Below are positions 12,990 through 31,263 of a stretch of 64,000 nt of DNA, piece by piece. The notes below the pieces were generated by a model. The model was not told the origin of the DNA. It searched no databases and saw only the letters and a program-made list of their open reading frames with translations. Source of the DNA: Xanthocytophaga agilis (lineage in GTDB: Bacteria > Bacteroidota > Bacteroidia > Cytophagales > 172606-1); contig NZ_JASJOU010000014.1 of the NCBI RefSeq assembly GCF_030068605.1, positions 62,001 through 126,000 of the forward strand. Reading direction: 5' to 3'. The stretch's first letter is position 1. Each line of letters opens with the position of its first letter. The position numbers were made by a program, and so were the translations under genes.

Positions 12990-13094
12990 GATATCTATTT
13001 TCGGGCGGCTCAGCTCCGGGCCAAGCCAGATCCGGAGAGGAATAGATATCTATTTTGTTCCAGGCGCTGCGTTTCCAGAGGAAAAATAGATATC
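12990..13094 (-). promoter_or_regulatory. Palindrome array I, before the lysis operon
   Basis: GATATC cores begin at 12990, 13045 and 13089 (spacings 55 and 44 bp), each flanked by A/T to read AAATAGATATCTATTT or close to it. GC-rich spacers contain CTCCGG...CCGGAG and CAGCTC blocks. The distal copy contains the TAG stop of the upstream gene; the proximal copy lies 28 bp before the holin ATG and reads TATCTTTT on the coding strand, resembling a -7 box. Confidence 0.8.
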
Positions 13095-14017
13095 TATTTG
13101 CCGTTAATGTGCTTACGCATCAGGACAAGCAATTTTTTATACAGGGGTGCAATAGCCTTAAAATCTTTCTCGGTTGCGTAGGCTACCGATTCAGCATATT
13201 TTCTGTCTGTCAGATACTGATTCTTCAGGTTCAGACGTGAGAGTTCAAAGTGTATGTATTGTTCAAACAGACGGGCAAAGATTTCATTTCGTCTATACCA
13301 GTATTCACCCTTCACTTTTGGTCTCATTCGGGTAATGGTTGTTGTCTCATTCCCTTTTTCATCCCTGTAAAAACGATTTATGATCTGATCACAAACTTTG
13401 CGCATCTGCCCGGTTTGATTCAGGTTTTGGGCTTCGCTTTGACCACCTGATAACCAAGCAGAATAGGGCTGTTGATCGACAAATGAACCAAAGAAATAAT
13501 CCAGCGCATGCCCGTACTCATGTGCAAAAGAACCATAGCCTTTGGTTCTAGTTAGATTGATTGCAAAACTATTAGCCTCAAAATGTGCCATAGCTTTTCC
13601 TCCTAGACCACGTGCCCCAAATGCAATAGAAACTCTGTGATCTAAACCCAGATTTTTAAAGCCTAGAACCTTATGCAGATCTTTCAAGCTTTCACGAGTA
13701 GAGATAAGGAAATTTGCCCTTTCCTCATGAGTGGTCCAGTTTCCAAACTCCAAACCTGCCAGACTGTATTCAGATACCAGCTTGTAGGTATCTGTGTATT
13801 TCTGCTGTTGCTCACGACTTAACAGTTTTTCTGCTGTTTCGGTATGGATGGGAAAATGAACGGCATATCGATGACGACGGCCACCAGCTGCAATATTTCC
13901 AACGTCCGACACTTTGGCATTGACACCACCTGCAGTAATTATTCTCTCCTTGGGGAGATTCTTATTTTTTGCTGCTGGCTTTTTTGCCTTTGTTGTTGGT
14001 TTTCCTTTTGGTGCCAT
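13094..14017 (-). CDS. Zincin-like metallopeptidase with LPD1-type domain
   Basis: 307 aa. A Lys/Pro/Ala-rich basic N-terminus (MAPKGKPTTKAKKPAAKNKN) could bind DNA. Residues 100-190 match the LPD1 domain of polyvalent proteins: LEFGNWTTHEERANFL, then RVSIAFGARGLGGKAMAHFE, then FAINLTRTKGYGSFAHEYGH, with HEYGH as the zinc-binding and catalytic motif. LPD1 is best known in long multi-domain proteins that phages and plasmids inject with their DNA; here it stands alone in a structural operon. I infer a virion-associated protease delivered with, or bound to, the genome. It is the last gene of the operon that starts at 20468. Confidence 0.75.
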   Translation of the reverse strand: MAPKGKPTTKAKKPAAKNKNLPKERIITAGGVNAKVSDVGNIAAGGRRHRYAVHFPIHTETAEKLLSREQQQKYTDTYKLVSEYSLAGLEFGNWTTHEERANFLISTRESLKDLHKVLGFKNLGLDHRVSIAFGARGLGGKAMAHFEANSFAINLTRTKGYGSFAHEYGHALDYFFGSFVDQQPYSAWLSGGQSEAQNLNQTGQMRKVCDQIINRFYRDEKGNETTTITRMRPKVKGEYWYRRNEIFARLFEQYIHFELSRLNLKNQYLTDRKYAESVAYATEKDFKAIAPLYKKLLVLMRKHINGK

Positions 14018-14131
14018 TTTTTTTAATTGAATGTCCTACGTTCATTTCCTTGCTTTTCAGCTTGGCTATAGGGTTTTTTACTTTAATCATAACTTGTTTT
14101 ACTAGGGATGAAACAATGGAAAATGTACAGC

Positions 14132-14338
14132 TTATTTGCCGTATACTTTCTTTACTGCTTGTTTACTAGCTGCTTTCCATGAGGGCATAAGAGCACCCTT
14201 TTTACCAGCCTCATAAATGATTTTGCGGGCTTGGAAATTTACTTCCCCAATTTTCTTTTGAGCTTCTTTCTGCTTAGCAGTAAAAGAGCGTTTTGTAGAA
14301 GTTGTTTTTTTTGACGATGATTTTTTAGTCTTAGCCAT
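14132..14338 (-). CDS. Small Lys-rich basic protein (68 aa)
   Basis: I chose the start MAKTKKSSSKKTTSTKRSFT rather than an in-frame ATG 30 codons upstream, because the latter would run into the preceding gene. The protein is strongly basic with short helices (AQKKIGEVNFQARKIIYEAG). Its composition, like the N-terminus of the neighbouring metallopeptidase, suggests DNA condensation in the virion. No known family recognised. The gap 14018-14131 holds nothing I can identify. Confidence 0.6.
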   Translation of the reverse strand: MAKTKKSSSKKTTSTKRSFTAKQKEAQKKIGEVNFQARKIIYEAGKKGALMPSWKAASKQAVKKVYGK

Positions 14339-14384
14339 AGTTGTATAAAATTGATTGTGAGAGAATTGATAAATTGTTGCGTAA

Positions 14385-14900
14385 TTATTTAAAGAGTCGT
14401 TTTCTTTTGCGGAATGCGGTAGAATCAATATGCAGCCCCTGCGGGGTTATTTCCCACTTTCCCGGCTGTATCCACCTCGCCGGATACTGATTGGTGTTGA
14501 TTTTGCCAATGGGTGAAATGGTTTGAATCACTAGTAAATCCATGACAGGCATAAGAGTGTCTTTCTTTATGCGTCTGGCACGTCTTCTTTCCTTTCTTGA
14601 TGGTTTAGGCAGATGTTTTACTCCTATGATGATATCTTTCTTTTCTAAAGACTTTCTTAGGGCTGTATCGGCCACTAGTGCAATATCTGTTTGTACTGGA
14701 ATCACCAGTTTTCCTGTGGGCTGAATGGGATCAATATGAAGCCTTTTAACTGTATCAGGCATCCACGGAGCACCAGAAACAGAGGTATAGTAATGCCTCC
14801 CATTTTCCCTAAACTGTTTTTTTGTAGCACATTTTTTTACAATCAATCCAGTACCAAACCCTATCAGCATCAATATCAGAATCCAAATAATTAATCTCAT
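14385..14900 (-). CDS. N-terminally anchored virion-type protein, unknown (171 aa)
   Basis: One hydrophobic helix at the very start (LIIWILILMLIGFGTGLIV) followed by a soluble 145-residue part with a very basic patch (KPSRKERRRARRIKKD, about residue 105). No family recognised. The length and layout fit the small anchored proteins of this operon, and it may sit in the internal membrane with its basic part facing the DNA (inference). Confidence 0.6.
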   Translation of the reverse strand: MRLIIWILILMLIGFGTGLIVKKCATKKQFRENGRHYYTSVSGAPWMPDTVKRLHIDPIQPTGKLVIPVQTDIALVADTALRKSLEKKDIIIGVKHLPKPSRKERRRARRIKKDTLMPVMDLLVIQTISPIGKINTNQYPARWIQPGKWEITPQGLHIDSTAFRKRKRLFK

Positions 14901-14920
14901 TTTGTAGTGTAGTAAAGTTT

Positions 14921-15607
14921 TTATCCACGTATTAAAGTTTTTCGTCTTTGTTTCTTTAGCCGTCTGGCTTGCTGACGTTGACGGCGTTTTTGATCTATTG
15001 AACTACTATTTCGCTTCCTCTTTGGGTGAATGGTATTGTCTGAAGATGGTTTTATAGAAAGAGAATCAGCTTGGATAGCCTTATAGATAGAAAGGGTCTT
15101 TTGTGCAAACCTGCTGGAATCAGCTAGTTTTACAGAAAGGGAATAATACCGATCTGCAAGCAATCGGGATTCCATGCGTACAGAATCAACCACTGATCTG
15201 ATATGCTCTTGTCCATCTGCCAGGACTAAAAACATTTGCTGTACATACTTACGGCTTTGCTGTTCCTGCTTGCGTAGATAGGTAGCTTCCTGTTTAATTC
15301 GACGAGTAGAATCTATTTGAATCTGTAAGGCACTATCTAACCGTTGACCGTAATTGAGTAGCTTATAATTTACCTGCTTCTGAAGACGGGAATTAACCAA
15401 AAGACTATCATTTTGCACTTCTAAAGCTGTCAGCTGCTTTGTATGATCACTGGCCTGTGCAATACGTTTGGCTTCAGCTTGTTTTACCTGATTTTGCAGA
15501 TAGATAATATTTTGTTTCTGCTCACAATGTCGTAAACTGCCTAAAGCCAGTAGGACTGCTACCAACGTAAACGCTAGTTGTGAAATAGATAATTTTTTAA
15601 GTCTCAT
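14921..15607 (-). CDS. Anchored coiled-coil protein with basic tail (228 aa)
   Basis: N-terminal helix (LAFTLVAVLLALGSL), then about 130 residues of Gln/Lys/Leu-rich coiled coil, then a tail rich in Arg/Lys/Gln (QKRRQRQQARRLKKQRRKT). It overlaps the next upstream gene by 4 bp (ATGA-type coupling). The anchor plus periplasmic-length coiled coil is reminiscent of i-spanins, while the Arg-rich tail points to nucleic-acid binding. I cannot choose between these. Confidence 0.6.
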   Translation of the reverse strand: MRLKKLSISQLAFTLVAVLLALGSLRHCEQKQNIIYLQNQVKQAEAKRIAQASDHTKQLTALEVQNDSLLVNSRLQKQVNYKLLNYGQRLDSALQIQIDSTRRIKQEATYLRKQEQQSRKYVQQMFLVLADGQEHIRSVVDSVRMESRLLADRYYSLSVKLADSSRFAQKTLSIYKAIQADSLSIKPSSDNTIHPKRKRNSSSIDQKRRQRQQARRLKKQRRKTLIRG

Positions 15608-15924
15608 TCGGAATCTTCGTTTTTGCGTAATAGGAGTTGTTTAAGCTTTTCACCCTTTTCTATTAGCCGGATAGCTTCATCTAATTTTTCTTCGTCTGTT
15701 TTTGCCAGTTCCTTTTCTTTTTCAGCCTGCTTTTCAAAATGCCTTTTGATACCTTCCTTCAGGGCATGGCCTATTGCCAATACAAGTACTATTAAGCAGT
15801 ATTGCCACCACGTACTATTAGCAGGCACAGCGGTAAACTCTGGCAGGGCTTGCAAGAGAATCGAAACCTGAAGGATATCTAAAATGAGGCTGGACACAGT
15901 TGTAGTATTAAAAGGGATGAGCAA
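15604..15924 (-). CDS. Small membrane protein (106 aa)
   Basis: A hydrophobic N-terminal half with two possible membrane segments (SSLILDILQVSILLQALPEF and WWQYCLIVLVLAIGHAL) and a charged helical C-terminus (EKQAEKEKELAKTDEEKLDE). It resembles small holin-like or phage membrane proteins. Its stop overlaps the start of the next gene. No family recognised. Confidence 0.6.
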   Translation of the reverse strand: MLIPFNTTTVSSLILDILQVSILLQALPEFTAVPANSTWWQYCLIVLVLAIGHALKEGIKRHFEKQAEKEKELAKTDEEKLDEAIRLIEKGEKLKQLLLRKNEDSE

Positions 15925-15945
15925 AATGGTTGTCAGATAGGATGC

Positions 15946-16248
15946 CTAGATAAAATACACGTTCTCAGTTCTTACAATCTTTCCATTGCGTTTGATCTCA
16001 AAATGAAGAGTAGAACTGGTAAGGGAAGTTTTAGAAATGTTTAGGGTAAAACTGCCTTGAGTAATAGCACTATTCTGTTCTGATCGGTTGACAGTATAGG
16101 TTTTACCCATAAAGCGGAAGGTGACATTAAACAGCACTTTGTCAACCTGAATAATGGCAAAGTCTACTTTGAAAAACTTCATATACAGCACTACTGCCAG
16201 GGCAGCTACAGACAGTACAGAAAGAAAGATGATGGATGTTTTTTTCAT
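15946..16248 (-). CDS. Anchored small protein, unknown (100 aa)
   Basis: Start taken at MKKTSIIFLSVLSVAALAVV, since the upstream ATG would overlap the preceding gene. One N-terminal helix, then a short beta-rich domain (FNVTFRFMGKTYTVNRSEQ, then FTLNISKTSLTSSTLHFEIK). No family recognised. Confidence 0.6.
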   Translation of the reverse strand: MKKTSIIFLSVLSVAALAVVLYMKFFKVDFAIIQVDKVLFNVTFRFMGKTYTVNRSEQNSAITQGSFTLNISKTSLTSSTLHFEIKRNGKIVRTENVYFI

Positions 16249-16249
16249 G

Positions 16250-16510
16250 TTAGTATACACCAGATTCACGCTGTACTTGTTCGCTTATGTCTTTTACTAC
16301 ATCAGTTACAGCTTGCTTAGTTAATTGATCTATTTTGGTCAGCTGTGCTTCTAATAGTTGCACAAGGTTTTTTACTTGGGGTTGTAAGTCTTCTTGGTGA
16401 AGTAGTTGTACAATGCCTAATGCACTGCAAAGGGGTTGTCTTAAACGGTGATTAATCCAAAACAGGGTTTTGGTTTGGGGACTCTGTGAGTTCATCAGTG
16501 AAGAGTTCAT
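16250..16510 (-). CDS. Small protein resembling a histidine-kinase dimerisation (HisKA) helix pair
   Basis: 86 aa. Residues 19-55 (INHRLRQPLCSALGIVQLL, then KNLVQLLEAQLTKIDQLT) closely follow the HisKA pattern SHELRTPL..I.G...LL with the H-box His. No ATPase domain exists in it or beside it. It is in the structural operon just after the spike gene. A genuine relation to two-component kinases or simple helical resemblance are both possible. Confidence 0.55.
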   Translation of the reverse strand: MNSSLMNSQSPQTKTLFWINHRLRQPLCSALGIVQLLHQEDLQPQVKNLVQLLEAQLTKIDQLTKQAVTDVVKDISEQVQRESGVY

Positions 16511-16548
16511 CAGTGGATCTTCTTTTGTAGAATGGTTTACTTTGGGAA

Positions 16549-16580
16549 AGAATACTACAGTTCACATACCGTAGTATTCT
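16549..16580 (-). terminator. Hairpin after the spike gene
   Basis: AGAATACTAC / GTAGTATTCT, a perfect 10-bp stem with a 12-nt loop, 15 bp after the spike stop, followed by a short T stretch on the minus strand. Probably a partial terminator or mRNA-stabilising hairpin within the operon. Confidence 0.6.
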
Positions 16581-16595
16581 CTAGTGGGTTAGATA

Positions 16596-17801
16596 TCAGA
16601 TATTCCAGGAGCCTTGTATATTGTATGCCAGTGGTAGAGAGAAAGTATAAGGCATAGTACCTGCATTCTCATAGTCAGGTGTATTAATAATACCACCTGA
16701 AATAGTTGTTAAATGGGCTTCTGATCCATCATAAACAGAGAATACATAACGAATATCATATATGAGGTTACCTTCAGTATCTGAACCCAAAAACTCCCTG
16801 TGTAACTCTATTTTAAAGCTTCCTAATGCAACCGCGCTGCCTACACCTTCAGCCGTTCTGTAAATAAGTACATCTACTTGCTGTGAGTAAGGCGCATTCC
16901 CTCCATTATCCATTCTGTCATAGGAACTAACAAAGTCGTCATCTTCGAATTGAAAAGTAGCCTGCGCATGTGCGGAAGTATCAAATTGAAAGTCAATCGG
17001 GGCTAAAGACGCACCCTCAAAACCTGTGTTGCGGAATGACAAACGTGCAGAAAGCCCGTTATATGGCTGCAAATCTGGATTGGAAAGACTTATATTGACA
17101 GAAGTTCCCATACCTAAGTCAAACCCTAACAGCCCGGACAACTGAAATTCACCATCTTGTACGCCTCTGTCTCTTGCTACCCAGAATACACTATTTGACT
17201 CAGTGCCACCCAGAGGAACGATTTTACCAAAGTATTCCTGATCAGGAATTAAACCTGATAGCTCATAGAATGTATCTGTTACTATTTGTCCGTCGACAAT
17301 CTTATTTGTATAATTTTCATCGGTAGCAACAAATACTTCATAGCTTGGAGAATTAGCACCTGTCCAGGCAAGCCGTGCAGACATTCCTGTAATCTGAGTA
17401 GGCATTGTCAGTTGAGAGAAACCCGGATTAGTGTTTTCCGCTGGTGTAATCCAACTAACCACATTGGAATAAGCAGACAAACCACCATCATTGTATAATG
17501 CCCGTGCTCGTGCGTAATACTGAGTTTGTGGATTTACACCCGGTTCAGTATAGCTGATAGTTCCTGTATTTGTCCCTTTATCTACAGTTTGAGAATCTAC
17601 ATACAGATTAGTAAAGGCTGCATCAAAGGCAATATCTACATAATAGATATTCAAATCATTGCGGGAAATAGCAGGCCAAGACAAGATAGATGCAAACGGG
17701 TTTGTGTTCTCAATAGAAAGAACAGGTGCCGGGTAGGTTATCGGTTGTTCACCCTCACCATTTATAATTATTTTGAAGAAAGAGCCAGTAAAGCCACTCA
17801 T
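16596..17801 (-). CDS. Fibronectin-III-containing spike / receptor-binding candidate
   Basis: 401 aa, all beta. After a short N-terminus (MSGFTGSFFKIIINGEGEQP) come two fibronectin-III-like domains, about residues 24-118 and 127-205 (ILSWPAISRNDLNIYYVDIA; LAWTGANSPSYEVFVATDEN), with the expected Trp and Tyr core residues. The C-terminal 190 residues form a distinct beta domain (LSGLLGFDLGMGTSVNISLS). Tailless phages carry receptor-binding spikes at the capsid vertices; its size and position in the operon fit that. No sugar-binding motif recognised. Confidence 0.65.
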   Translation of the reverse strand: MSGFTGSFFKIIINGEGEQPITYPAPVLSIENTNPFASILSWPAISRNDLNIYYVDIAFDAAFTNLYVDSQTVDKGTNTGTISYTEPGVNPQTQYYARARALYNDGGLSAYSNVVSWITPAENTNPGFSQLTMPTQITGMSARLAWTGANSPSYEVFVATDENYTNKIVDGQIVTDTFYELSGLIPDQEYFGKIVPLGGTESNSVFWVARDRGVQDGEFQLSGLLGFDLGMGTSVNISLSNPDLQPYNGLSARLSFRNTGFEGASLAPIDFQFDTSAHAQATFQFEDDDFVSSYDRMDNGGNAPYSQQVDVLIYRTAEGVGSAVALGSFKIELHREFLGSDTEGNLIYDIRYVFSVYDGSEAHLTTISGGIINTPDYENAGTMPYTFSLPLAYNIQGSWNI

Positions 17802-17830
17802 AGACTGTAGTATTTAGAATGAAATGAAAA

Positions 17831-18244
17831 TCACAAATTCGGTTCTTCAGAACCTGAATCACTCGTGTTATCTTGTGGAAGTTCTGTTAGATAGGACACT
17901 ACTGCTATTCCACGTACTGTAATAGTGATCGGCTGCCCATCCACTTCTGGTTTAATCGCAATAGATTCGGGTGTTGCATAACAGATTTTTATTCCTGTGC
18001 TCTGTTTGGCAGGACTCCAATTGATATCAAATTCATCATCTACACTGGCTGGAGCAACAGAAAACCATATTGCATTTAGTGGTAATGCATAGGTTGTATT
18101 CTGGATCGTATCACCAGAAACAGGTTTTCGGGTAGGTCTGACATGTGCTACTAAAAGTCTGTATAACATTTCATCTGTCAGATTCTGAAAATTCCCGTCT
18201 CTGTATTTTTTTTCCGTGTATGGAATACTGTTTTCTGCTGGCAT
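17831..18244 (-). CDS. Unknown beta-rich structural protein, vertex (penton) candidate (137 aa)
   Basis: No membrane helix, unlike most neighbours. The first 45 residues are helical (YRDGNFQNLTDEMLYRLLVA), then short beta strands (NAIWFSVAPASVDDEFDINW; PITITVRGIAVVSYLTEL) of single-jelly-roll length, and an acidic tail. It directly precedes the spike gene in transcription. The combination suggests a penton or spike-base protein, but this rests on size and place only. Confidence 0.55.
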   Translation of the reverse strand: MPAENSIPYTEKKYRDGNFQNLTDEMLYRLLVAHVRPTRKPVSGDTIQNTTYALPLNAIWFSVAPASVDDEFDINWSPAKQSTGIKICYATPESIAIKPEVDGQPITITVRGIAVVSYLTELPQDNTSDSGSEEPNL

Positions 18245-18257
18245 TATTGAAAGAGGA

Positions 18258-18773
18258 TTAAATTAAGTGATAACCATGTTTTAGTTCTGTATCTGACAAT
18301 TCTCTACCTATTTCCACCCGTGCAATAACTTTTGCTAGTGCCTTTAGTGTGTTTTCATTTGCCTGTAAAGGGCTGTCAGGAGAAGTACCCAGACGGGCTG
18401 CAACGGTTTGTATGTAATTGCTGGTGTTATTCTCAGTTGTAGGTGCATATAGAGTAATAATACCTCGTATGGTAGTCGCCCGGCCTGTCTGAATGTATTT
18501 TCTAAGCAGTTTCAGAAGGGCTGCCACACCATAGCGGAACTCTTTAAACTGCTCAAAGGTCTTATCAGTATTTTGAGCCAAAGGAATTTTACCCGTCCAA
18601 TCGTTAGAGGCTACATACTTCAGATTACCCGGATTATTGTTTCTCAGGCCACGAGGTAAAGAGTTTTGCCCTAAATAGGATTTATACTTAGCAAATATCT
18701 GACGGCGAAAAAGCCAGATCATACTAAAAGCAAAACCTAGTATAATGAGCCAGTTTGTTTTTTGCTTTTCCAT
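18258..18773 (-). CDS. Membrane-anchored lytic enzyme with RNNNPGN motif
   Basis: 171 aa. The N-terminal helix NWLIILGFAFSMIWLF anchors it; residues 38-171 hold LPRGLRNNNPGNLKYV, then FEQFKEFRYGVAALLKLL and IRGIITLYAPTTENNTSNYI. These are the marks of a muramidase-like family common in Bacteroidota prophages and often named structural protein P5. It probably opens host peptidoglycan during genome entry. It lies beside two other wall-related genes. Confidence 0.75.
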   Translation of the reverse strand: MEKQKTNWLIILGFAFSMIWLFRRQIFAKYKSYLGQNSLPRGLRNNNPGNLKYVASNDWTGKIPLAQNTDKTFEQFKEFRYGVAALLKLLRKYIQTGRATTIRGIITLYAPTTENNTSNYIQTVAARLGTSPDSPLQANENTLKALAKVIARVEIGRELSDTELKHGYHLI

Positions 18774-18782
18774 CGTAATTCC

Positions 18783-19322
18783 TTACCAGGCAGGAGAAAG
18801 AACTTTTGACAATTGTTTGAAAGTGCCTTTCTGATACAGATAATAGGCACCAAGCCCGATCAATAGGAGAGTGAGAAGGGTAAGACGAATAACAGCCCCG
18901 TTTTTGATCTTCAGTTCGATTGTATCATACCCAGCCAGTTTATCACGCAAATCTTTCCAGGCTGAATCCTTAACCAATTTTCCATTTTTCAAACGAGTAT
19001 AAGAGGCAACTATACAGCCTTCAGTACTTTGTGCTGATACTCCATTGTGTATCCTGATTCCAGAAAAACCGCGAACATTGAGCACTAACAGCATCATTAC
19101 ACCAAACTTGGCAGAATAGGTGTTTTCTATTTTATAGCTACCCTCTGGAATGGCTGTAAGTCCGGGTACCTTCACTAAGGTTATTTCCCCGGTTCTTACC
19201 ATGTCTTCTACTGTATAGCAGAAGAATTTACCATTGACATACAACTTACCAGTTGTATAATCACTGGTGAACTCATCCCGGACCAAAAGCATCTCTGCGG
19301 TCTTCAGCTTCGCCGTTTTCAT
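18783..19322 (-). CDS. DUF5675 family protein with C-terminal membrane anchor
   Basis: 179 aa. Residues 1-140 match DUF5675 (LLVRDEFTSDYTTGKLYVNG; VEDMVRTGE; IPEGSYKIENTYSAKFG; RIHNGVSAQSTEGCIVAS), with the conserved His and Cys. This pattern resembles L,D-transpeptidase folds. The C-terminus has a helix (LTLLTLLLIGLGAYYLY). The family occurs in many phages; catalysis on peptidoglycan is proposed, not shown. Anchoring fits an internal-membrane virion enzyme. Confidence 0.78.
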   Translation of the reverse strand: MKTAKLKTAEMLLVRDEFTSDYTTGKLYVNGKFFCYTVEDMVRTGEITLVKVPGLTAIPEGSYKIENTYSAKFGVMMLLVLNVRGFSGIRIHNGVSAQSTEGCIVASYTRLKNGKLVKDSAWKDLRDKLAGYDTIELKIKNGAVIRLTLLTLLLIGLGAYYLYQKGTFKQLSKVLSPAW

Positions 19323-19339
19323 CTTCCCTTCTCGTTCTC

Positions 19340-19519
19340 TTATTTGGATAAAGCCGAGATTACTTTACCGATTAGCATTATGGCCAGTGCTACTGCAAAG
19401 GCAGCTGCTGCCAGTTCAATAATAGTTTTGGTGTTTACCTGAACTTCTACATTGACTGTAGGTAGCTGATTCTTATTAACCAGATCGGTTACAAACTTGG
19501 ATTGAAAGAAATCTCCCAT
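19340..19519 (-). CDS. Small membrane protein (59 aa)
   Basis: Reading frame starting MGDFFQSKFVTDLVNKNQLP, with one helix near the end (IIELAAAAFAVALAIMLIG). It fills the gap between two structural genes on the same strand with normal spacing, so it is probably real. No family recognised. Confidence 0.6.
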   Translation of the reverse strand: MGDFFQSKFVTDLVNKNQLPTVNVEVQVNTKTIIELAAAAFAVALAIMLIGKVISALSK

Positions 19520-19527
19520 TATGGTAA

Positions 19528-19995
19528 TTAGTCTAAGCCTAATGATTTAAGGCGTGTTACAATTTTGTCTTTGGCACTCATAAACCATTCTCCCTCTATC
19601 CACTGAGTCAATGTTTCTCCTTTTCCATACTGCTTATTGAAGTAGTTGTATAGGGCGGTGCATTGGTCATCTGTCAGTACCATGATTTTATTAAGGGTAT
19701 TCATTTTGGAAATACCAGAAGTAGTGATACCATTCAGCTTGCTGTAGATTTCATCTGCAAGGGCTTTAGGTGACCAGCTACTAACTGTACCATCCGGATT
19801 CTTAACCTGTGGAATACCACTTCCTGAGTTGGGTAGTGGTTTTTCTTTAGCAGCTTCTTCCAGTCCCATTTTCCGGCCTACATACCAGATCACCACAACT
19901 ACAATTATCACAATCAGAAATATCTGAAAGGGTTTGGATGACAAGAGGCTACCCCCTGCCTTACCTGCTCCGGCTGTGAATAGTGACCAAAACAT
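19528..19995 (-). CDS. N-terminally anchored protein, unknown (155 aa)
   Basis: The membrane helix FQIFLIVIIVVVVIWYVG is at residues 23-40, then a soluble domain with annexin-like helices (SPKALADEIYSKLNGITTSG; CTALYNYFNKQYGKGETLTQ; LTQWIEGEWFMSAKDKI). The stretch LADEIY...LNG with GETLTQWI occurs in other small Bacteroidota phage proteins, as far as I recall. Three bases separate it from the gene upstream. Role unknown. Confidence 0.65.
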   Translation of the reverse strand: MFWSLFTAGAGKAGGSLLSSKPFQIFLIVIIVVVVIWYVGRKMGLEEAAKEKPLPNSGSGIPQVKNPDGTVSSWSPKALADEIYSKLNGITTSGISKMNTLNKIMVLTDDQCTALYNYFNKQYGKGETLTQWIEGEWFMSAKDKIVTRLKSLGLD

Positions 19996-19997
19996 GA

Positions 19998-20468: not shown

Positions 20469-20493
20469 TCCAGTACTTTCATAGTTGTAGTTT

Positions 20494-20587: not shown

Positions 20588-20589
20588 TT

Positions 20590-21174: not shown

Positions 21175-21176
21175 GA

Positions 21177-21494: not shown

Positions 21495-21511
21495 AGCTTA
21501 TCTAGTGGGGT

Positions 21512-22869: not shown

Positions 22870-22903
22870 GGGAATAGCTCCAGATTGATTGTAGCGTATA
22901 TGG

Positions 22904-23497: not shown

Positions 23498-23515
23498 AGT
23501 TCTTTGTCGTTTAGC

Positions 23516-23557: not shown

Positions 23558-23587
23558 CTATGGTTAAATACTACCCTTCAGAATAAA

Positions 23588-24397: not shown

Positions 24398-24454
24398 GTT
24401 TTTACCCTTTAGGTGAGAATAGTCATTGTGTTCTTTACCTGAGAGGTAGGGCGA

Positions 24455-24574
24455 TTAAACAGCAGGAGTAGTAGTTTCCTTTTTAGCTTTGTGTTCTTTC
24501 CAGTAATGGAATCCGATCACAACTACAGCCACGGCAACAACTGTTACACCGAAATTGATAAGATGGGCTTTCAT
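24455..24574 (-). CDS. Very small membrane protein (39 aa)
   Basis: Begins MKAHLINFGVTVVAVAVVVI and continues GFHYWKEHKAKKE: one helix and a basic end. It fills the gap between the capsid gene and the helix-turn-helix gene on the same strand. Confidence 0.55.
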   Translation of the reverse strand: MKAHLINFGVTVVAVAVVVIGFHYWKEHKAKKETTTPAV

Positions 24575-24702
24575 GCGGAGATTTGATTAAGTTAGTTTAG
24601 TATGATTCAATTAAAAACGGCTGCTAATCTAAACAGACAGCTTTTGTCAGTGTCCGGCTGTGGTGAGTTATGGTAGGATGTTTCCTGATATGTCGGTTTG
24701 TG

Positions 24703-24933
24703 TCAGTTTCTATCAGTTTCAGGTTCACCCAGAACTGAGAAAATAAAGGTGACAATCTTAGGGTTAAGCGTTCTACAAGTGTGTTTATACCCGATCTGAG
24801 TTAACTGGCTTTGATAGGGTTGTAACCAACGGGTTAAGGTTCTGACAGAGATACTATACATGTCTGCCAGTTCAGATTTCCCGTAAGTCCGTCCTTTGAT
24901 TGTTTCCATAAATGCCAGCATATACCTATGCAC
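24703..24933 (-). CDS. Helix-turn-helix protein (76 aa)
   Basis: The core GKSELADMYSISVRTLTRWL is a helix-turn-helix of MerR/Cro-like type, followed by a basic segment (GYKHTCRTLNPKIVTFIFSV). It lies between the ATPase and capsid genes. It is the best-placed candidate to bind the phage palindromes or the packaging site; both ideas are inference. MLAFMETIKGR offers alternative starts. Confidence 0.65.
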   Translation of the reverse strand: MHRYMLAFMETIKGRTYGKSELADMYSISVRTLTRWLQPYQSQLTQIGYKHTCRTLNPKIVTFIFSVLGEPETDRN

Positions 24934-24940
24934 ATATCAG

Positions 24941-25510
24941 TTACGCATTCGTAGCAACTACTTCGCGGTAAAAGTTACTTTCATGCTTCATTACCCTTTG
25001 CCACACTTTCATAAATTCTTCAGGATTGGGCAACTTTTCCAGATTCTTCAGATACTTTTCTGCATCTCCTGTTTTGCCCACAATGATATAATTACACTTG
25101 TCTAAAACTTTTGGTGGAATTACCCGGAAGGAATGAAAGGTTAGAATCAAATCTACATTGCGGTGTCTTCTGTCAACAAGTAGCCAGTTTAAAGACTCCT
25201 GTATGTTTGAGTTTACATACGCTGTCGCATCTTCTAATACTACACAGGCATTGTAAACATTCGCAGGAATAGCATCAATAAAGCTGTCTGTATCTGGATG
25301 GAATATGCGGTAAACTCCTGTAGATTTCCAACGGGGCAAATTCTTAAATTCCATCTTTGGAAACTGCCTGTATGCATCTTCGTTGTTTACATCATAAATC
25401 AAAACCCCTTTGTTTTTACTGAGAGCTTTAATCAGCTGAAGCATAAAAGTAGTTTTGCCAGTTCGGGGCCGACCTACTGAGAGAATTACACTGTTTGGCC
25501 GAAATTCCAT
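24941..25510 (-). CDS. P-loop genome-packaging ATPase (FtsK/HerA type)
   Basis: 189 aa. Walker A is GRPRTGKT at residues 13-20; Walker B is ACVVLEDA at about 88-95; a later segment RRHRNVDLILTFHSFRVIPP resembles the sensor and Arg region of HerA/FtsK-like viral ATPases. The small size and solitary domain match the packaging ATPases of PRD1/PM2-type viruses, about 200-230 aa, and not large terminase. It pumps DNA into preformed capsids. Neighbouring small genes and the capsid gene support this. Confidence 0.8.
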   Translation of the reverse strand: MEFRPNSVILSVGRPRTGKTTFMLQLIKALSKNKGVLIYDVNNEDAYRQFPKMEFKNLPRWKSTGVYRIFHPDTDSFIDAIPANVYNACVVLEDATAYVNSNIQESLNWLLVDRRHRNVDLILTFHSFRVIPPKVLDKCNYIIVGKTGDAEKYLKNLEKLPNPEEFMKVWQRVMKHESNFYREVVATNA

Positions 25511-25525
25511 TGCTATCTGATACGA

Positions 25526-26197
25526 TTAACGAGTAGGTAAAGTAAAGTTAGATAAGCCAGGGAAGAACGGTAACAGACGCGGGAGCATGACAATAACAAG
25601 GGCAATAGCCAGCTGTGTTTCAGGGCTGCTGCCTCCTGCCTGGTGCTTTTCCAGTACAGCTGCTAACGGTTCAGTTAGTGTCTGCATTTCTTCTTCGGTG
25701 AAAGCAATACTACTGCATGCTGCATCTAGCTGTTCATATCTGTCAAGTGCGTGAAATAACAGGTCATCTTCTGTAATAGCGTCCTCAATTAATAAATTGG
25801 GATTCTTACGCTTTTTCTCCCTCCAATCATTGAGAATTACACTGTCACCCTCTTTTAAGATGCTTTTCTTATAGATGAAAGGCAGGGCTTTTTTCTGAAG
25901 CATATTGAACGTACCAAGCCAGAATTTAGCTTGTTTCGTCCAAAAGTTCTTATCCTTTACAGTGTCAGCGGGTGGCTGTATTGCTTCATCTGCAAAGTCA
26001 TCAGTAGAAAATGAGGGGATATCTGTTTCAGCCGTTTCAGATATGGGATCAGAAGTGTGTGTGCTGTTCGATTCCCCCTCAATTTCAGTAGTATCTGTAG
26101 TAGTTGCAGTATGCCCGGTTACAGGTTCTTCACCCGGTCTATATTTTACCTGTGTAGGTGTTGCTAGTTGCGCTAAAAGTTCGTCTGTAGAAAGCAT
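25526..26197 (-). CDS. Tail-anchored acidic protein, unknown (223 aa)
   Basis: A Thr/Ser/Glu-rich disordered N-terminal third (residues 15-75), a helical middle (FWTKQAKFWLGTFNMLQKKA) and a C-terminal helix (LAIALVIVMLPRLLPFFPG). Four bases separate it from the gene upstream. Similar architecture occurs in small structural proteins of membrane phages; no family recognised. Confidence 0.6.
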   Translation of the reverse strand: MLSTDELLAQLATPTQVKYRPGEEPVTGHTATTTDTTEIEGESNSTHTSDPISETAETDIPSFSTDDFADEAIQPPADTVKDKNFWTKQAKFWLGTFNMLQKKALPFIYKKSILKEGDSVILNDWREKKRKNPNLLIEDAITEDDLLFHALDRYEQLDAACSSIAFTEEEMQTLTEPLAAVLEKHQAGGSSPETQLAIALVIVMLPRLLPFFPGLSNFTLPTR

Positions 26198-26200
26198 AGC

Positions 26201-26536
26201 TTATTTTTTTACAGGTATCTGATTGAAAAATAAGTGCTGGTATTTTTCCAGTACTTCCCCGATTCCGTCAAACATACCGGAAGGATTATTTAAAAGCTTA
26301 GGAAGCATCTGCATTAGTTGCATAGTGCCAGGAGCTTTTCCGGAATCAATACCAAGCATTTTGCAGATGGGCTGCATACCCGTAAGGATTTTATATAGAT
26401 CTGCACTGACAGCATCTCTTTCAGTAATTGCCTGCTGTAGCTGCTCTATTAGTTCATTTTTTTCAGTTACCCATGTAAGCAGTGTTTCGGGCGAAACAGT
26501 TACACTACCATCTTCATTTTTTATTATATCACTCAT
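26201..26536 (-). CDS. Small helical protein, first gene after array III (111 aa)
   Basis: Starts MSDIIKNEDGSVTVSPETLL, then coiled coil (EKNELIEQLQQAITERDAVS) and a Met/Leu-rich helix (GTMQLMQMLPKLLNNPSGMF). The start is chosen over an ATG 15 codons upstream, because the latter overlaps the proximal palindrome at 26544. Unknown function; possible scaffold or assembly factor. Confidence 0.6.
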   Translation of the reverse strand: MSDIIKNEDGSVTVSPETLLTWVTEKNELIEQLQQAITERDAVSADLYKILTGMQPICKMLGIDSGKAPGTMQLMQMLPKLLNNPSGMFDGIGEVLEKYQHLFFNQIPVKK

Positions 26537-26543
26537 TGGGAAA

Positions 26544-26692
26544 GATATCAATGTGAAAGGATGTATATAGCTGATCGGCAAGGAGCCGTGTCGGGTTAGA
26601 TATCTATTTTGTGCAGCTGAGCTGCCTTCAGGATGAAAAATAGATATCTATTTCTATTCCGGAATGCCAGGACTCAGGGCAAAAAAGATATC
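26544..26692 (-). promoter_or_regulatory. Palindrome array III, before the main structural operon
   Basis: Four GATATC cores begin at 26544, 26599, 26643 and 26687, with spacings 55, 44 and 44 bp. The middle copy AAATAGATATCTATTT is perfect. Spacers hold GCAGCTGAGCTGC and ATTCCGGAAT blocks. The distal core ends at the TAG stop of the upstream gene; the proximal one reads TATCTTTC on the coding strand, 8 bp before the ATG. Confidence 0.8.
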
Positions 26693-26952
26693 TACAGAGT
26701 TTCTAGGAATATTGGGCGTACTGGCTTTTTGAAAAGTAGGTAGGCAACAAGTCCAAGCAATAACACAAGCGTAATCAGGGTAAGCATATTGCTTTTTAAG
26801 GATACCTTATTTAATGCCTGTTGATGGATGTTAACCTGCTGTTGCATGATTGCCTGATTAAGTAAAACCACCTGTGCGGTTTCTACCGATTCAAGCCTGC
26901 TTTCTAACTTCTTTCTTCTCTGAAAGAAGGATAATAGTTTAGGAAACTTCAT
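26692..26952 (-). CDS. Tail-anchored coiled-coil protein (86 aa)
   Basis: Basic start (KFPKLLSFFQRRKKLESRLE), Gln-rich helix, and a C-terminal membrane helix (MLTLITLVLLLGLVAYLLF). Its TAG stop lies inside the distal palindrome of array III. Eight bases after the gene upstream; the two form a short operon of their own. Confidence 0.6.
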   Translation of the reverse strand: MKFPKLLSFFQRRKKLESRLESVETAQVVLLNQAIMQQQVNIHQQALNKVSLKSNMLTLITLVLLLGLVAYLLFKKPVRPIFLETL

Positions 26953-26960
26953 AAGCCAGA

Positions 26961-27422
26961 TTAGAAAGTAAGACCTGTTTCCAAATGCTTCAATGAGCCA
27001 AAGTAACCATAGGATTGAGCACGATTAAAACAATGCTTTACCACATCTTTTACACTTATCCGTTCTTTACTCGGAGCAGCTACAGCCTGTTGCATTGCTT
27101 CCAGTTCAGTTTCCAGTTGAGTAATGCGCTCTTGCGCTTCAGCCAGTTTCTGAGCTACACTTTGAGCCTTTTGGAACATGGCCTGTACCTGTTTATCTGC
27201 ATCGATACTCTTTGCAATCAACTCATTTATTATCTTACTATTTGATTTGCCAGTTTCGGCAGCTTCATTTTCAATCAGCTGCCGAATTGCTTGTGTATCT
27301 GGCCGGAATCCCATTGGTCCTTGGGTATCCTTTTTAGTGGCAGGGGCTGCCTGTAAGATTGGATTTTCTTCACCTGCTACGTGCGTAGTATCGGCTGTGG
27401 GAGTAACGGTGTTTCCTTGCAT
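26961..27422 (-). CDS. Coiled-coil DNA-binding-like protein (153 aa)
   Basis: Residues 42-75 (TQAIRQLIENEAAETGKSNS, then KIINELIAKS) have the shape of a ribbon-helix-helix or similar small DNA-binding fold. A long coiled coil follows (AQKLAEAQERITQLETELEA). Expressed apart from the late operons, upstream of array III, so it may regulate them. Inference only. Confidence 0.55.
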   Translation of the reverse strand: MQGNTVTPTADTTHVAGEENPILQAAPATKKDTQGPMGFRPDTQAIRQLIENEAAETGKSNSKIINELIAKSIDADKQVQAMFQKAQSVAQKLAEAQERITQLETELEAMQQAVAAPSKERISVKDVVKHCFNRAQSYGYFGSLKHLETGLTF

Positions 27423-27838
27423 TTGCTTTGTTTTTAGCCTGTTTACAAGACTTTTTCTTTAGTTTGGTAACACAAAGGTCTCAAAGCGAAAATTGTGAAC
27501 ACAACGACATTGAAGCGTTTGCTTACTGAGTGTAAGGAAAGCACAATATTTAGCAAGTTTGCCAAAATTCGTGTTGACATAATAGTTTGATTGTCAGAGG
27601 TTAAAACGGGAAAATGTGCGTGGGCTTACAAAGGCGGGAAACAAAAGTATTTATAAAGAATTATGCAATAATCCCTGAAAATTCACTGTTTACAGGGAAA
27701 TACTACCTAATTGTCCGATCAAAGCCATCTTTCCTTATATAAAGTAATTTATTATATTTAGGTTAGTGCATGAATCAGACTTATCCACAGCAATGAATCA
27801 TCACACTAGTTTCATTGATTAAAAACGAATAAAGATAT
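27423..27838. promoter_or_regulatory. Divergent intergenic region between a late gene and cargo nuclease
   Basis: 416 bp without a gene. On the minus strand a TTG is followed 21 nt later by GACCTTTG (about 27468-27500), a reasonable promoter for 26961-27422. On the plus strand only a weak TATATTTA box is seen before the nuclease gene. No palindrome array is present. Confidence 0.45.
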
Positions 27839-29146
27839 ATGATAAATACAGTCGCAGATCTGCTCCAAGAATTAAAAGATGCTGAGGTAAAGAGACTTGA
27901 CTCATTAAAGATTAAACATAGGCCTACTATAGGAAATATGCATGAAGGATTAGTTGGTAATATTCTTGAAAAGGCATTGTTTAAGGGTTTTAATATCAAC
28001 ATAGTAAAGAATTCCTTTATTCGTACCGCAAATGGAACAAGAAGTGAGGAGTTAGATATTATGATAATTGAAGGACATGGAAAACAGTTGCCTTATACAG
28101 ACCAATATGATGTAGAGTTTGATAAAGTAATTGCAGTAATACAAGTCAAAAAAACCTTAAATACAGCACAACTTGAATCTGCTTATTCGAATCTAAAGAA
28201 TGTCTATGATATTTCCGAATTCAAGTCTTATCCAGATTATTCAAAGAGAATGTTTCGAAATTCCTATAGAGGAATTTGCCAAGAAGATATTTTTGAGAGA
28301 GGCCGAACTCGAAAAACATTTAAAAGCTCAACAACAGAACTCATATATCATATGTCAAGGCTAGAAGCCTTAATGCCCGCTAGAATTGTATTCGGATATA
28401 ATGGCTTTACCTCAGAATATGGACTTAGGCAAGGTTTTGTAAAGTTTCTCTCAGCAAATAAATCAAAAACTCTTAATATGAAACCTGGATTTGGGCCACT
28501 AAACTTTCCTGATTTGATCTTAAATAATCAATTCAGCTTAGTAAAAGCAAATTGTTTACCTTATGCTGGAAGAATGACAGAATATCAGTGGCCATTTTTC
28601 TTATCTAGTTCTGAAAATCCACTATTAAAACTACTTGAGATAATTTGGACAAGACTGTCTTATAAGTATAAATTATCAAGTGAGATTTTTGGTGATGATC
28701 TTGAATTGGAAGGCATGAATGCTTTCCTTTTTGCTAATCTTGTATACATTGATGGAGTACGTGGGTGGAATTATGAATATATTAAGTTAACAAATAATAA
28801 ACTTCAGAAGCAAAAAGGAAATAGTGAATGGCTACCTGTCGCTTTATCAGACGCGCAACATCATATTATTGCTTATTTGTGCAAATATAATTCTATATAC
28901 ATTGGGAAAATAAATCGATCTTTATCATCAATACAAATATCAGTTGATACTGAAGTTTTTGTTAAGGAAATAATTGAAACAGGTTTAGTGTACAAAGATG
29001 GCCCTACGTTAAAACTATTAACTGAACGTTGTTCATGTGTTTATATCCCTAATGAAGGTTATTATGCTGCAGAGAATAAAAGCGAGCAATTAACTAAATG
29101 GTGTGATAAACGATTTCCGAACCAGTGCATAATTACACAAAACTAG
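27839..29146 (+). CDS. DUF6602-like putative nuclease (cargo)
   Basis: 435 aa. The N-terminal 130 residues resemble DUF6602: RPTIGNMHEGLVGNILEKAL, then NGTRSEELDIMIIEGHGKQL and DKVIAVIQVKKTL. The E...LD...QVKK pattern is that of PD-(D/E)XK nucleases, with Asp in LDIMI and Lys in QVKKTL. The rest is unfamiliar. It is on the plus strand inside a minus-strand phage block, and more AT-rich than its neighbours, so it is a late-acquired cargo gene. Its 3' end overlaps the next gene by 14 bp, tail to tail. A role in defence against other phages is plausible but unproven. Confidence 0.65.
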   Translation: MINTVADLLQELKDAEVKRLDSLKIKHRPTIGNMHEGLVGNILEKALFKGFNINIVKNSFIRTANGTRSEELDIMIIEGHGKQLPYTDQYDVEFDKVIAVIQVKKTLNTAQLESAYSNLKNVYDISEFKSYPDYSKRMFRNSYRGICQEDIFERGRTRKTFKSSTTELIYHMSRLEALMPARIVFGYNGFTSEYGLRQGFVKFLSANKSKTLNMKPGFGPLNFPDLILNNQFSLVKANCLPYAGRMTEYQWPFFLSSSENPLLKLLEIIWTRLSYKYKLSSEIFGDDLELEGMNAFLFANLVYIDGVRGWNYEYIKLTNNKLQKQKGNSEWLPVALSDAQHHIIAYLCKYNSIYIGKINRSLSSIQISVDTEVFVKEIIETGLVYKDGPTLKLLTERCSCVYIPNEGYYAAENKSEQLTKWCDKRFPNQCIITQN

Positions 29147-29819
29147 TAACTATTAGATCTGGATGTTTACGCTTTACATGATTATAACGGTTCTGCCGGA
29201 CGTTCGGTCCTGTATAATTGTAGTTGCAATAATCACAATTCCAAGTTTCATTTTCCTTACTGCGATTTTCCAAATTTACATCTTGTTTACCTGCTTTTTT
29301 TAACATTGGTTTACTATTGTTTACTGGAATTGTTGCTAAGTTGTCTATGGTTGTCTCAGATGCGTAAACCAGTTGTTCACTGAGAGTTTCTGAAACAGCA
29401 CTTGTTTCAGTTTCTGTGTAAACTGGCTGTTTACCTGTATTTACTGGTTTTGTTTCAAAATAGGTTTTACCCAGTTCCGAAAAATACCAAAGCAGATACC
29501 CTGACATGCTGTAAACAATCAGTTTGGCAACTGCCATACTATAGGAGTAGTTTGCCATCTGGTTTGCAATTACGTTCACAAGGCAGGAAAGTACAGCCAG
29601 TACAGCTGCCTGTTTCTTTGCACCCTTCAGTACGGATATTAGTACGCCTAATTCAATGCCTACAGCCCACGTAATACCTGCAATCCTTCTAACATCAATG
29701 CCAAAGACAGCCGAATAATCAGGTGAACCAACTGTTAACACATACGCTAGATTATTGATCTGGTTACCAAGGATACAAAGCAGGGCTACTGCCAGAATAA
29801 ATATAAATAGTTTGTTCAT
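29133..29819 (-). CDS. Four-helix membrane protein with C-terminal zinc finger
   Basis: 228 aa from MNKLFIFILAVALLCILGNQ (an upstream in-frame start would add 11 residues). Four hydrophobic segments lie in residues 1-130. The last 40 residues contain WNCDYCNYNYTGPN then NRYNHVKRKHPD: a C-x2-C...H-x4-H zinc finger close to the eukaryote-like C2H2 pattern. A DNA-binding finger on a membrane protein suggests tethering DNA to the membrane. Unusual; no family recognised. Confidence 0.6.
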   Translation of the reverse strand: MNKLFIFILAVALLCILGNQINNLAYVLTVGSPDYSAVFGIDVRRIAGITWAVGIELGVLISVLKGAKKQAAVLAVLSCLVNVIANQMANYSYSMAVAKLIVYSMSGYLLWYFSELGKTYFETKPVNTGKQPVYTETETSAVSETLSEQLVYASETTIDNLATIPVNNSKPMLKKAGKQDVNLENRSKENETWNCDYCNYNYTGPNVRQNRYNHVKRKHPDLIVTSFV

Positions 29820-29878
29820 GTGAACGAATGTAAACAGGGTTGCACAATACAAGTGGTATAATACTTAATCATAACAAT

Positions 29879-30106
29879 TCATTCTAATTCCCATTCCTTT
29901 AGTTTTGTTAACAAGCGTATCATACTGACTGTATCCATTTGAGAAATAGATTCTTCGGCAAGCTTAATATCTACTTCCATTAATAAAGCAGCAAACAAGC
30001 CACCAGGCGCATTGTCTTTGTAAACAGAAACTATTTGGCGAACCCGGTTGCATTCATCTTGTAAGGCTTCTATTAAGTTTCGTGGTTTTTCTCCTTCTTT
30101 TTCCAT
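29879..30106 (-). CDS. Small helical protein, conserved type in Bacteroidota phages (75 aa)
   Basis: Helical throughout: LIEALQDECNRVRQIVSVYK, then GGLFAALLMEVDIKLAEESI and VSMIRLLTKLKEWE. Similar small proteins occur next to phage replication genes in other Bacteroidota, from memory. Part of the operon behind array IV. Confidence 0.6.
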   Translation of the reverse strand: MEKEGEKPRNLIEALQDECNRVRQIVSVYKDNAPGGLFAALLMEVDIKLAEESISQMDTVSMIRLLTKLKEWELE

Positions 30107-30111
30107 AGGTT

Positions 30112-30813
30112 TTATCTTTTAAATAGGTACATACAATTTTTATCAGGATTAACAGCCCGACTAAACAGGATATTAGGGAAGGTCAAAATCTTATAGTCTT
30201 GCCAAGCCTTCAGTAGTGGTTTTTCGCCATGTATATTGTGATTGCCTAAATGGATGTAGCAACGTGCTCCATGATCAAAAAGCTTTTCTTCTATCACCCC
30301 TTTTTCATTGCCAGTTTTCAGACCCTTCTTCCATTTATGAGTAATCCAGCTACCTATAATTACTTTGGGCTTGTAGTGGGCTACAGCTGCCAGTGCATCC
30401 ATTCTTACTACATCTTCCACATAGCTTACTACTGGTTGCTGCAATTCATCATAGATCTGCTTTATGTCTTCATCTTCCTGCTGATAGCTATCTGTCATAG
30501 GTATACCCAATGCGCGGCCTATAGCACCGTTACCAGCTCCTATTTCAATCACATTATCTAGGGAACCATATGTACCCGTAATGAAGCTTCTTAGAACATT
30601 AATAAGTTCTGTAGTAGGTAGCGTGTAAACTCCGTAAACATGCCCGAACTGGCTTAACTGCTTCTGTGTAAACTGAGCATAGAAAGAAGATGGAACTATT
30701 TGTAGCTTTCCATCCTTCCAGGCAATTTTTTCTATCTCAGAAATATCTTCTTTTGGTGCAAATCTGGCATCATTCAGTATTTGTTCTTTATCAAATGGTG
30801 ATTGTCCTCTCAT
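30112..30813 (-). CDS. SAM-dependent methyltransferase-like protein
   Basis: 233 aa. Motif I is VIEIGAGNGAIGRAL (about residues 88-102), the glycine-rich SAM-binding loop; an acidic strand end follows (VEDVVRMDALAA) and then VIIGSWITHKW. No DNA-methylase catalytic motif such as NPPY or PC is seen, so the substrate is unknown. It is 1 bp from the gene upstream, in the same operon. Confidence 0.7.
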   Translation of the reverse strand: MRGQSPFDKEQILNDARFAPKEDISEIEKIAWKDGKLQIVPSSFYAQFTQKQLSQFGHVYGVYTLPTTELINVLRSFITGTYGSLDNVIEIGAGNGAIGRALGIPMTDSYQQEDEDIKQIYDELQQPVVSYVEDVVRMDALAAVAHYKPKVIIGSWITHKWKKGLKTGNEKGVIEEKLFDHGARCYIHLGNHNIHGEKPLLKAWQDYKILTFPNILFSRAVNPDKNCMYLFKR

Positions 30814-30814
30814 T

Positions 30815-31123
30815 TCAGTAGTTCGATTTTATTTTATGATTATTTATCTTTTTTGCATGCTGATTCTGATAGTAGACTGCTTCAGTTTCAGATAATCTTT
30901 CTCTTAACCTCATGATTTCGTGCAATTGGTTTAATTCGGATTGCATTTCGTTCTTTTCCTTCAATAGTTGCTCTATTGTCCTTTGCAGCTTTGAATAGTT
31001 ATTGATTATTTCTTTGATACAGGCTGTGCGAGTGTTAGCATTCATTTTAGTTTCAATAGCCTGTAGTGTATTTTCAGTTTGGTCATCCAGGCGAAGTATA
31101 AAGCCACTCTTTTGATCGGCCAT
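30815..31123 (-). CDS. Ribbon-helix-helix-like regulator with coiled coil (102 aa)
   Basis: Start MADQKSGFILRLDDQTENTL; residues 6-45 have an N-terminal strand and two helices typical of ribbon-helix-helix proteins (ACIKEIINNYSKLQ), followed by a coiled coil (LLKEKNEMQSELNQLHEIMR). It is the first gene behind array IV and 35 bp from the proximal palindrome. A protein of this type bound as dimers could read the arrays. Inference. Confidence 0.6.
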   Translation of the reverse strand: MADQKSGFILRLDDQTENTLQAIETKMNANTRTACIKEIINNYSKLQRTIEQLLKEKNEMQSELNQLHEIMRLRERLSETEAVYYQNQHAKKINNHKIKSNY

Positions 31124-31158
31124 ATGTGAAAAGGTTAGTTGTTTTGGATTGTTTGAAA

Positions 31159-31263
31159 GATATCTTTTTATGCAGCTGAAGAAGGTACTTCCGGAGTGAT
31201 CCGGCAAAGAGTAGATATCTATTTTGTCAGCTCCAGGAAACTGATATCCAGAAAATAGATATC
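31159..31263 (-). promoter_or_regulatory. Palindrome array IV, before the RHH/methyltransferase operon
   Basis: GATATC cores begin at 31159, 31214 and 31258, with spacings 55 and 44 bp. The distal copy AAATAGATATCTATTT is perfect and contains the TAG stop of the HNH gene. Spacers have GTCAGCTCCAGG and CTTCCGGAGTG. The proximal copy reads TATCTTTC, resembling a -7 box. An extra off-phase GATATC lies at 31243. Confidence 0.8.

Follow-up and report, generated by a model that had tools for sequence, protein, structure and literature searches.

A 30.4-kb integrated element (a prophage at 3541..33947, flanked by 18-bp direct repeats) in a 64,000-nucleotide stretch of the Xanthocytophaga agilis genome (assembly GCF_030068605.1, contig NZ_JASJOU010000014.1, positions 62,001 to 126,000; hereafter the window) carries four arrays of GATATC-centred palindromes, each directly before a minus-strand operon, and the motif and its spacing occur almost exclusively there (Table 1). 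The arrays are read here as operator or promoter modules for a single sequence-specific DNA-binding protein of the phage, which would jointly control several operons of the element, a reading given a probability of about 0.6. This reading draws on the intergenic position, the fixed spacing, the near absence elsewhere, the recurrence at a second locus and the separate operators of a repressor candidate; regulatory arrays heading operons fit this evidence. The sequence-only reading that pointed to the arrays had proposed a single cooperative switch. Its observation is confirmed and extended below and its interpretation partly supported, the single switch being something that we infer.

All 13 GATATC starts that had been reported are present, and each of the nine internal intervals measures 44 or 55 bp. 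With the modulus fixed, the chance that nine of nine fall at 0 modulo 11 is about 4e-10, a value to be read with the 55-44 order common to three arrays in mind, since the intervals may not be independent. At all four operons the array spans the gap from the stop codon of one gene to the start codon of the next. The TAG stop of the preceding gene lies within the distal copy in arrays 1 (gene 13094-14017), 3 and 4, and 3 bp farther out in array 2. In arrays 2 and 3 the copy nearest the gene is an imperfect palindrome, and array 4 contains an extra GATATC at 31243, off the 11-bp grid. The arrays had been described as preceding four late operons. They do directly precede operons, and those behind arrays 1-3 appear to be late from their gene content, but the operon behind array 4 is non-structural. 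The set of four is also incomplete: a fifth pair lies beside the cargo genes, its copy at 5004 forming the centre of a perfect 42-bp palindrome (4987-5028) and its second copy standing at 5057, and the putative major capsid gene has 10-bp repeats instead.

The array consensus is the palindrome AAATAGATATCTATTT. The motif is enriched in the element: AGATATCT occurs 13 times (two at 5004 and 5057, the others being 11 of the 13 array copies), against a first-order Markov mean of 0.77 and a maximum of 4 in 60 simulations. Among palindromic 8-mers of the element it ranks first, ahead of TTATATAA with 7, and the 33.6 kb of the window outside the element contain no copy of it. Across the 9.77-Mb genome, TAGATATCTA is found 16 times on one strand, 8 of these in the 30-kb element, and its reversed letters 24 times, so the enrichment is confined to the element and is not genome-wide. 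Pairs of AGATATCTATTT and AGATATCT at 43-55 bp occur in this genome only, with none in the 394 other sampled genomes of the class (the 395 class genomes and the 390 order genomes used below are samples from larger groups). A looser pair at 40-51 bp, a range that excludes 53 and 55 bp, is missing from the seven other genomes of the family; on one strand of the own genome, all seven pairs retrieved are exactly 44 bp apart where 12 spacings were permitted. The sole pattern match among viral contigs (L033) is a 13-bp tandem repeat and was judged a coincidence; by reading of its open reading frames that contig encodes terminase- and portal-like proteins, and tblastn gave no match to proteins of the element.

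Outside the element, the same genome contains a sixth array on contig C29 (G000:C29:42933/42977/43021), the only locus found to share the arrays, whose two intervals of 44 bp both obey the rule. Over 95 bp it shares 75% identity with array 2, the spacers having largely diverged. An integrase fragment about 0.8 kb away is 65% identical to the integrase of the element over 34 residues; a PLD-domain protein flanks the array on one side, and on the other no Pfam match was obtained for the first 140 of 235 residues. The locus (G000:C29:42928-43890; L072, L073) is likely a remnant of a related element. A Roc-COR/LRR protein is encoded near this remnant, and one spacer of its array (L072, about 42946) contains TGGTAGCCA, an exact half-site of the Fibrella arrays described below, which may be coincidence.

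Helical phasing of regulator sites is usually demonstrated on engineered promoters. Here a natural genome appears to have repeated the phasing experiment: in the five arrays of at least three copies, C29 included, all 11 intervals are four or five 11-bp units long, and the one departure from this grid is the separate 53-bp pair. The arrays would offer a testable gene switch in a little-studied virus group.

Table 1. Arrays, candidate regulators and other features of the element (coordinates of the window).
Feature	Position	Strand	Description
Array 1	12985..13100	-	GATATC at 12990, 13045, 13089 (55, 44); before membrane-protein/CHAP-like (lysis) genes
Array 2	20489..20592	-	GATATC at 20494, 20538, 20582 (44, 44); before 19998-20468 and genes behind
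Array 3	26539..26694	-	GATATC at 26544, 26599, 26643, 26687 (55, 44, 44); before 26201-26536, 25526-26197 and packaging-type ATPase
Array 4	31154..31268	-	GATATC at 31159, 31214, 31258 (55, 44); before ribbon-helix-helix (RHH)/coiled-coil gene
Fifth pair	4987..5070	+	AGATATCT at 5004 and 5057 (53); integrase on one side, cargo genes on the other
10-bp direct repeats x3	24691..24720	-	GAAACTGAYA-like (GAAACTGATA GAAACTGACA CAAACCGACA); Tandem Repeats Finder score 39
RHH-like protein with long coiled coil	30815..31123	-	AlphaFold2 single-sequence model, mean predicted local distance difference test (pLDDT) 85.3
Second RHH-like/coiled-coil protein	26961..27422	-	Synteny with G381 protein matching Pfam RHH_1; alignment A4
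Cro/CI-type repressor candidate	33409..33852	+	HTH_3, 9e-11; faces early genes
Attachment (att) repeats	3541-3558 and 33930-33947		First copy at 3' end of tRNA-Arg; repeat search, ARAGORN
Tyrosine integrase	3819-4958		At one end of element
Packaging-type ATPase	24941..25510	-	PHROG terminase large subunit, 1e-8; Pox_A32 weak, below cut-off
Putative major capsid protein	23588..24397	-	Conserved beside ATPase in relatives
DUF4248 helix-turn-helix (HTH) protein	24703..24933	-	Pfam DUF4248, 3e-10; between packaging-type ATPase and putative capsid gene

In the proposed mechanism, a dimer would bind each AAATAGATATCTATTT palindrome, and bound dimers would interact along the DNA, their sites lying 4 or 5 whole turns of about 11 bp apart. 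The binder would be the 30815-31123 protein, expressed from array 4 and hence autoregulating. Release of the early operon by the CI-like repressor would let the binder rise and switch on the operons behind arrays 4, 3, 2 and 1; joint control may extend to the cargo genes that follow the 53-bp pair. Of the two modes, activation is somewhat favoured over repression, as separate operators apparently serve the lysogeny repressor: TTCAATTGAA palindromes, likely the operators of this candidate, lie 26 bp apart at 33367-33376 and 33393-33402 between its gene and the early genes, and the gap before 33409-33852 contains TTCAATTGAA and no AGATATCT. AGATATCT is thus probably not the site of the CI-like repressor, which implies a different regulator.

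Several observations weigh against joint control by one protein of this kind. The 5004/5057 pair, at 53 bp, breaks the 44/55 rule, so that 9 of the element's 10 close intervals obey it. Spacings of 44 and 55 bp correspond to 4.2 and 5.2 turns of a helix with 10.5 bp per turn; for the sites to share one face, either the DNA must be wrapped or a turn must take about 11 bp. Between the proximal copy and the start codon lies a variable 10.5 to 38.5 bp, array 3 being nearly leaderless, and no -33/-7 promoter pair was established at the arrays. In the 12 regions from relatives, two GATATC within 30-70 bp were found in none. The N-terminal piece of the favoured binder matches no RHH or other family in Pfam and, compared by sequence, no RHH protein among solved structures; no convincing homolog of the protein appeared in the 389 other sampled genomes of the order. 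A -7-like TATCTTT, present at 3/4 gene-proximal copies vs 2/9 other copies, was too weak for use.

The 30815-31123 protein is favoured as the reader of the arrays, a guess placed a little below even odds, because its gene is the first behind array 4 and the predicted model matches the helix order of an RHH monomer. In the model, residues 1-13 are non-helical, helices occupy residues 14-26 and 29-100, and the strand is absent from the monomer; the long helix is predicted as a coiled coil that could join dimers. Two weak matches to it (residues 20-93 and 21-77) fall within reading frames 880 and 901 residues long, and neither the viral contigs nor the phage collection gave a match. The 26961-27422 protein is better supported as an RHH protein, but it is conserved in viruses without the motif; its G381 counterpart scores 24.5 bits against RHH_1 (cut-off 20.5), its own piece only 12.3 bits (E=0.17). 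The DUF4248 HTH protein has relatives in both Fibrella prophages.

With the packaging-type ATPase as query, relatives were found in 12 of the 390 order genomes, its own included, and a search with the ATPase alignment A1 retrieved 9 of 222 genomes in the family of Fibrella aquatilis HMF5036 (G226). The close relatives are this virus and those of Fibrella forsythiae HMF5405 (G283), a Spirosoma metagenome-assembled genome (G901) and a further genome, G381; ATPase identity is 36-46% for the three closest relatives compared. Among viral contigs, the ATPase gave five partial matches of 33-56% (L002-L006) and alignment A1 none. On the question whether related prophages keep the copies before homologous operons, which the sequence-only reading had made its touchstone, the outcome is divided. 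The 12 regions contain no close GATATC pairs at all, hence none before these operons, and five AGATATCT are scattered over three of the regions; on the other side, the closest relatives have other helically phased repeats before such operons and the C29 locus retains the 44-bp spacing.

Among these other repeats, GGTA half-sites in the early noncoding region number 14 in F. aquatilis (best period 11.1) and 13 in F. forsythiae (11.4), in steps of 11-12 bp. In five viruses (that of the window, both Fibrella, G381 and G901), ten stretches preceding the putative capsid or RHH gene were scanned with Tandem Repeats Finder, and seven of them contained period-10/11 arrays, where 0.2 were expected; that expectation overstates independence, since G381 is close to G901 and the two Fibrella to each other, which leaves about three lineages, and the count is partly post hoc, the ten stretches having been chosen after part of the repeats was seen. 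Such arrays occurred in 1 of 1000 shuffled stretches, and periods 8, 9, 12 and 13 in 0/10. They are absent before the F. aquatilis capsid gene and before the RHH genes of the window and G381, and 10-11-bp repeats precede the RHH gene in three of the five viruses, the window not among them. The 24691-24720 repeats of the window precede the small-membrane-peptide and putative capsid genes, overlap the stop codon of the DUF4248 HTH gene and occupy the same place as the 10-11-bp repeats of the relatives. Three 11-bp arrays, similar in sequence, lie near the ATPase of G360, a more distant virus. Six of eight distant ATPase regions (33-40 kb) contain at least one period-10/11 array, which is uninformative alone at a background of 24 in 529 kb.

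Were the arrays repressor operators that silence the operons in the lysogen, in the manner of stoperators, the proximal copy would sit on the promoter and the upstream copies would act cooperatively. Multi-site operators are usual for repressors; a dimer on the proximal copy, so close to the start codon, would block initiation, and silencing would suit the 53-bp pair beside the cargo genes. The stoperator and conserved-inverted-repeat systems of mycobacteriophage L5 and phiC31 likewise distribute many copies of one repressor site across the phage genome, these sites being mostly single and without fixed spacing. Repression is nevertheless judged unlikely: the promoter of the CI-like repressor gene itself has different palindromes, and the favoured binder would sit in a repressed operon. 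It is an appreciable possibility, clearly short of even, that 26961-27422 or the DUF4248 HTH protein reads the arrays, an account compatible with the preferred one in all but the binder. Both have relatives or syntenic counterparts, and the repeats before the RHH gene in three viruses recall ParR, an RHH protein that in R1 and pB171 binds 11- and 10-bp direct repeats, according to the accessible part of PMC9426499. Both proteins are conserved, however, while AGATATCT is not, and the conserved 10-11-bp repeats seem the better match for them.

The spacers bear on a further account, in which the 44/55 pattern was inherited by duplication and transfer of one array and the spacing is functionless. 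The spacers are GC-rich, at 0.59 vs 0.35 for 12 intergenic stretches elsewhere. Compared without gaps, the six 44-bp spacers show no significant likeness (p=0.23); among 18 spacer pairs, the best joins the 44-bp spacers of arrays 2 and 4 (16/26, p=0.0004), two more reach p of 0.02-0.04 and the others exceed 0.1. This best pair, the 55-44 order and the identity between C29 and array 2 argue for duplication. Most of the other pairs are no more alike than shuffles and yet exact in length, which drift alone would not preserve, and functionless spacing is judged improbable. The claim that spacers share CAGCTG and TCCGGA blocks stands in part: CAGCT lies at one fixed outward offset from GATATC in 4 of 22 flanks, C29 array included (p=0.0005, which is optimistic as the flanks of one interval overlap), and four of the seven TCCGGA of the element fall in arrays, but of its 23 CAGCTG (Markov 6.6) just 3 do. 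The CAGCTG block is a real but partial feature, its count by itself being uninformative. It is very improbable that the arrays, instead of acting as promoters, are sites distributed over the element for centromere function, packaging or DNA organisation. Iterated sites together with RHH proteins do resemble parC/ParR, and a packaging-type ATPase is among the neighbours; against this stand the exact stop-to-start placement at four operons, the kilobases between arrays and the single array that C29 keeps beside two non-structural genes.

As operators of one phage protein, the arrays resemble the late promoters of phage P2, four of which carry TGT-N12-ACA and depend on the activator Ogr (PMC3931495, accessible part). 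In both, one phage protein would be expected at four operons via a dyad-symmetric site before each, and a palindromic site before each of several putatively late operons is present here, array 4 heading its non-structural operon. P2 differs in its TGT-N12-ACA site and zinc-finger activator, whereas the element has AAATAGATATCTATTT in three or four palindromes at 44/55 bp and a host of another phylum. No Ogr-like protein was matched in the Pfam or PHROG scans made, which did not both include every small open reading frame; 29133-29852 gave a very weak match to a BED-type finger (E=0.09). The arrays may work like the four-late-promoter regulon of P2 without being a member of it. In PM2 (Corticoviridae), P13 and P14 activate the late operon (PMC1950889, PMC5656799, accessible parts); this too is a small phage that encodes its own late activators and has a packaging ATPase near the capsid gene, but its 10-kb genome has one late operon, arrays are not mentioned in those parts, and the capsid fold of the element is only putative. 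ParR matches the repeats of the relatives in being an RHH protein on 11- or 10-bp repeats; it belongs to a partition system with ParM, whereas the window has palindromes at 44/55 bp, and the Pfam scans made of the element's proteins gave no ParM-type or actin-like ATPase. Among the open-access titles and starts of abstracts surveyed, none describes 44/55-bp palindrome arrays in such an element, and neither 'palindrom' nor 'Spirosoma' occurs in the accessible part of PMC5894146.

A wider and rather doubtful proposal is that of a family of integrated, probably tailless viruses from bacteria around Fibrella and Spirosoma, whose structural operons would stand under helically phased iterated operators that vary in sequence by virus and keep their period. 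In the window these would be the 44/55-bp palindrome arrays; the prophages of Fibrella and Spirosoma would use direct repeats of 10-11 bp. A virus-encoded RHH/coiled-coil protein, polymerising or bridging along them in the manner of ParR, might then provide a cooperative, all-or-none late switch. In the related viruses the repeat sequence changes while period and position persist, which would provide material for studying co-evolution of regulator and site.

Leftward from the repressor end lie early genes, array 4, the RHH-like/coiled-coil gene, a methyltransferase-like gene, the second RHH-like/coiled-coil gene and array 3, then the ATPase, the DUF4248 HTH gene, the putative capsid gene, array 2 with further structural or lysis-like genes, and array 1 with a membrane protein and a CHAP-like endolysin. 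From this gene content the element is probably tailless. The CHAP-like gene matches a PHROG endolysin, CHAP itself being below the Pfam cut-off. The methyltransferase-like protein (30112-30813) is so read from an S-adenosylmethionine-binding motif; it matched no Pfam family, and the idea that the palindromes are methyltransferase targets was abandoned. The putative capsid protein had no match in the phage collection. Its AlphaFold2 model from a four-row alignment (pLDDT 44.5) was too poor for use, Foldseek gave no match at E<=0.001, and these and profile searches were uninformative on the fold, including whether it is the double jelly roll of the tailless viruses named after it.

The cargo genes (window 5082-8507 and 8755-11940) include a Beta-protein family member, a HigB-like toxin with an HTH/IrrE-type protein, and a 1061-aa TPR protein with 102-bp repeats. 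At 32160-32260, in the noncoding gap upstream of gene 31525-32148, lie AAGAAC/GTTCTT repeats and a near-perfect palindrome around GGACTTAAGTCC; the 11-bp array of F. forsythiae sits upstream of a gene linked to 31525-32148 via G381. That array (L025 13385-13516) and its F. aquatilis counterpart (L023 14915-15090) are long early noncoding repeats of the TGGTAGCCA type, possibly an origin or control region. The noncoding regions of the relatives have a tRNA-like look, yet ARAGORN gave only a tRNA-Leu (L025:36-133) in six loci, and Rfam found nothing in L041-L043, the L023-L028 stretches not being included. Three GTGTATACAC-like palindromes, separated by 35 and 86-87 bp, lie in a highly conserved noncoding region of G381 (L028, about 5336-5458) and the Spirosoma genome (L043, 5168-5298). 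Around the ATPase of the distant relative G360 (L032, about 13772-14058), repeats 65-67 bp apart resemble an array of clustered regularly interspaced short palindromic repeats (CRISPR).

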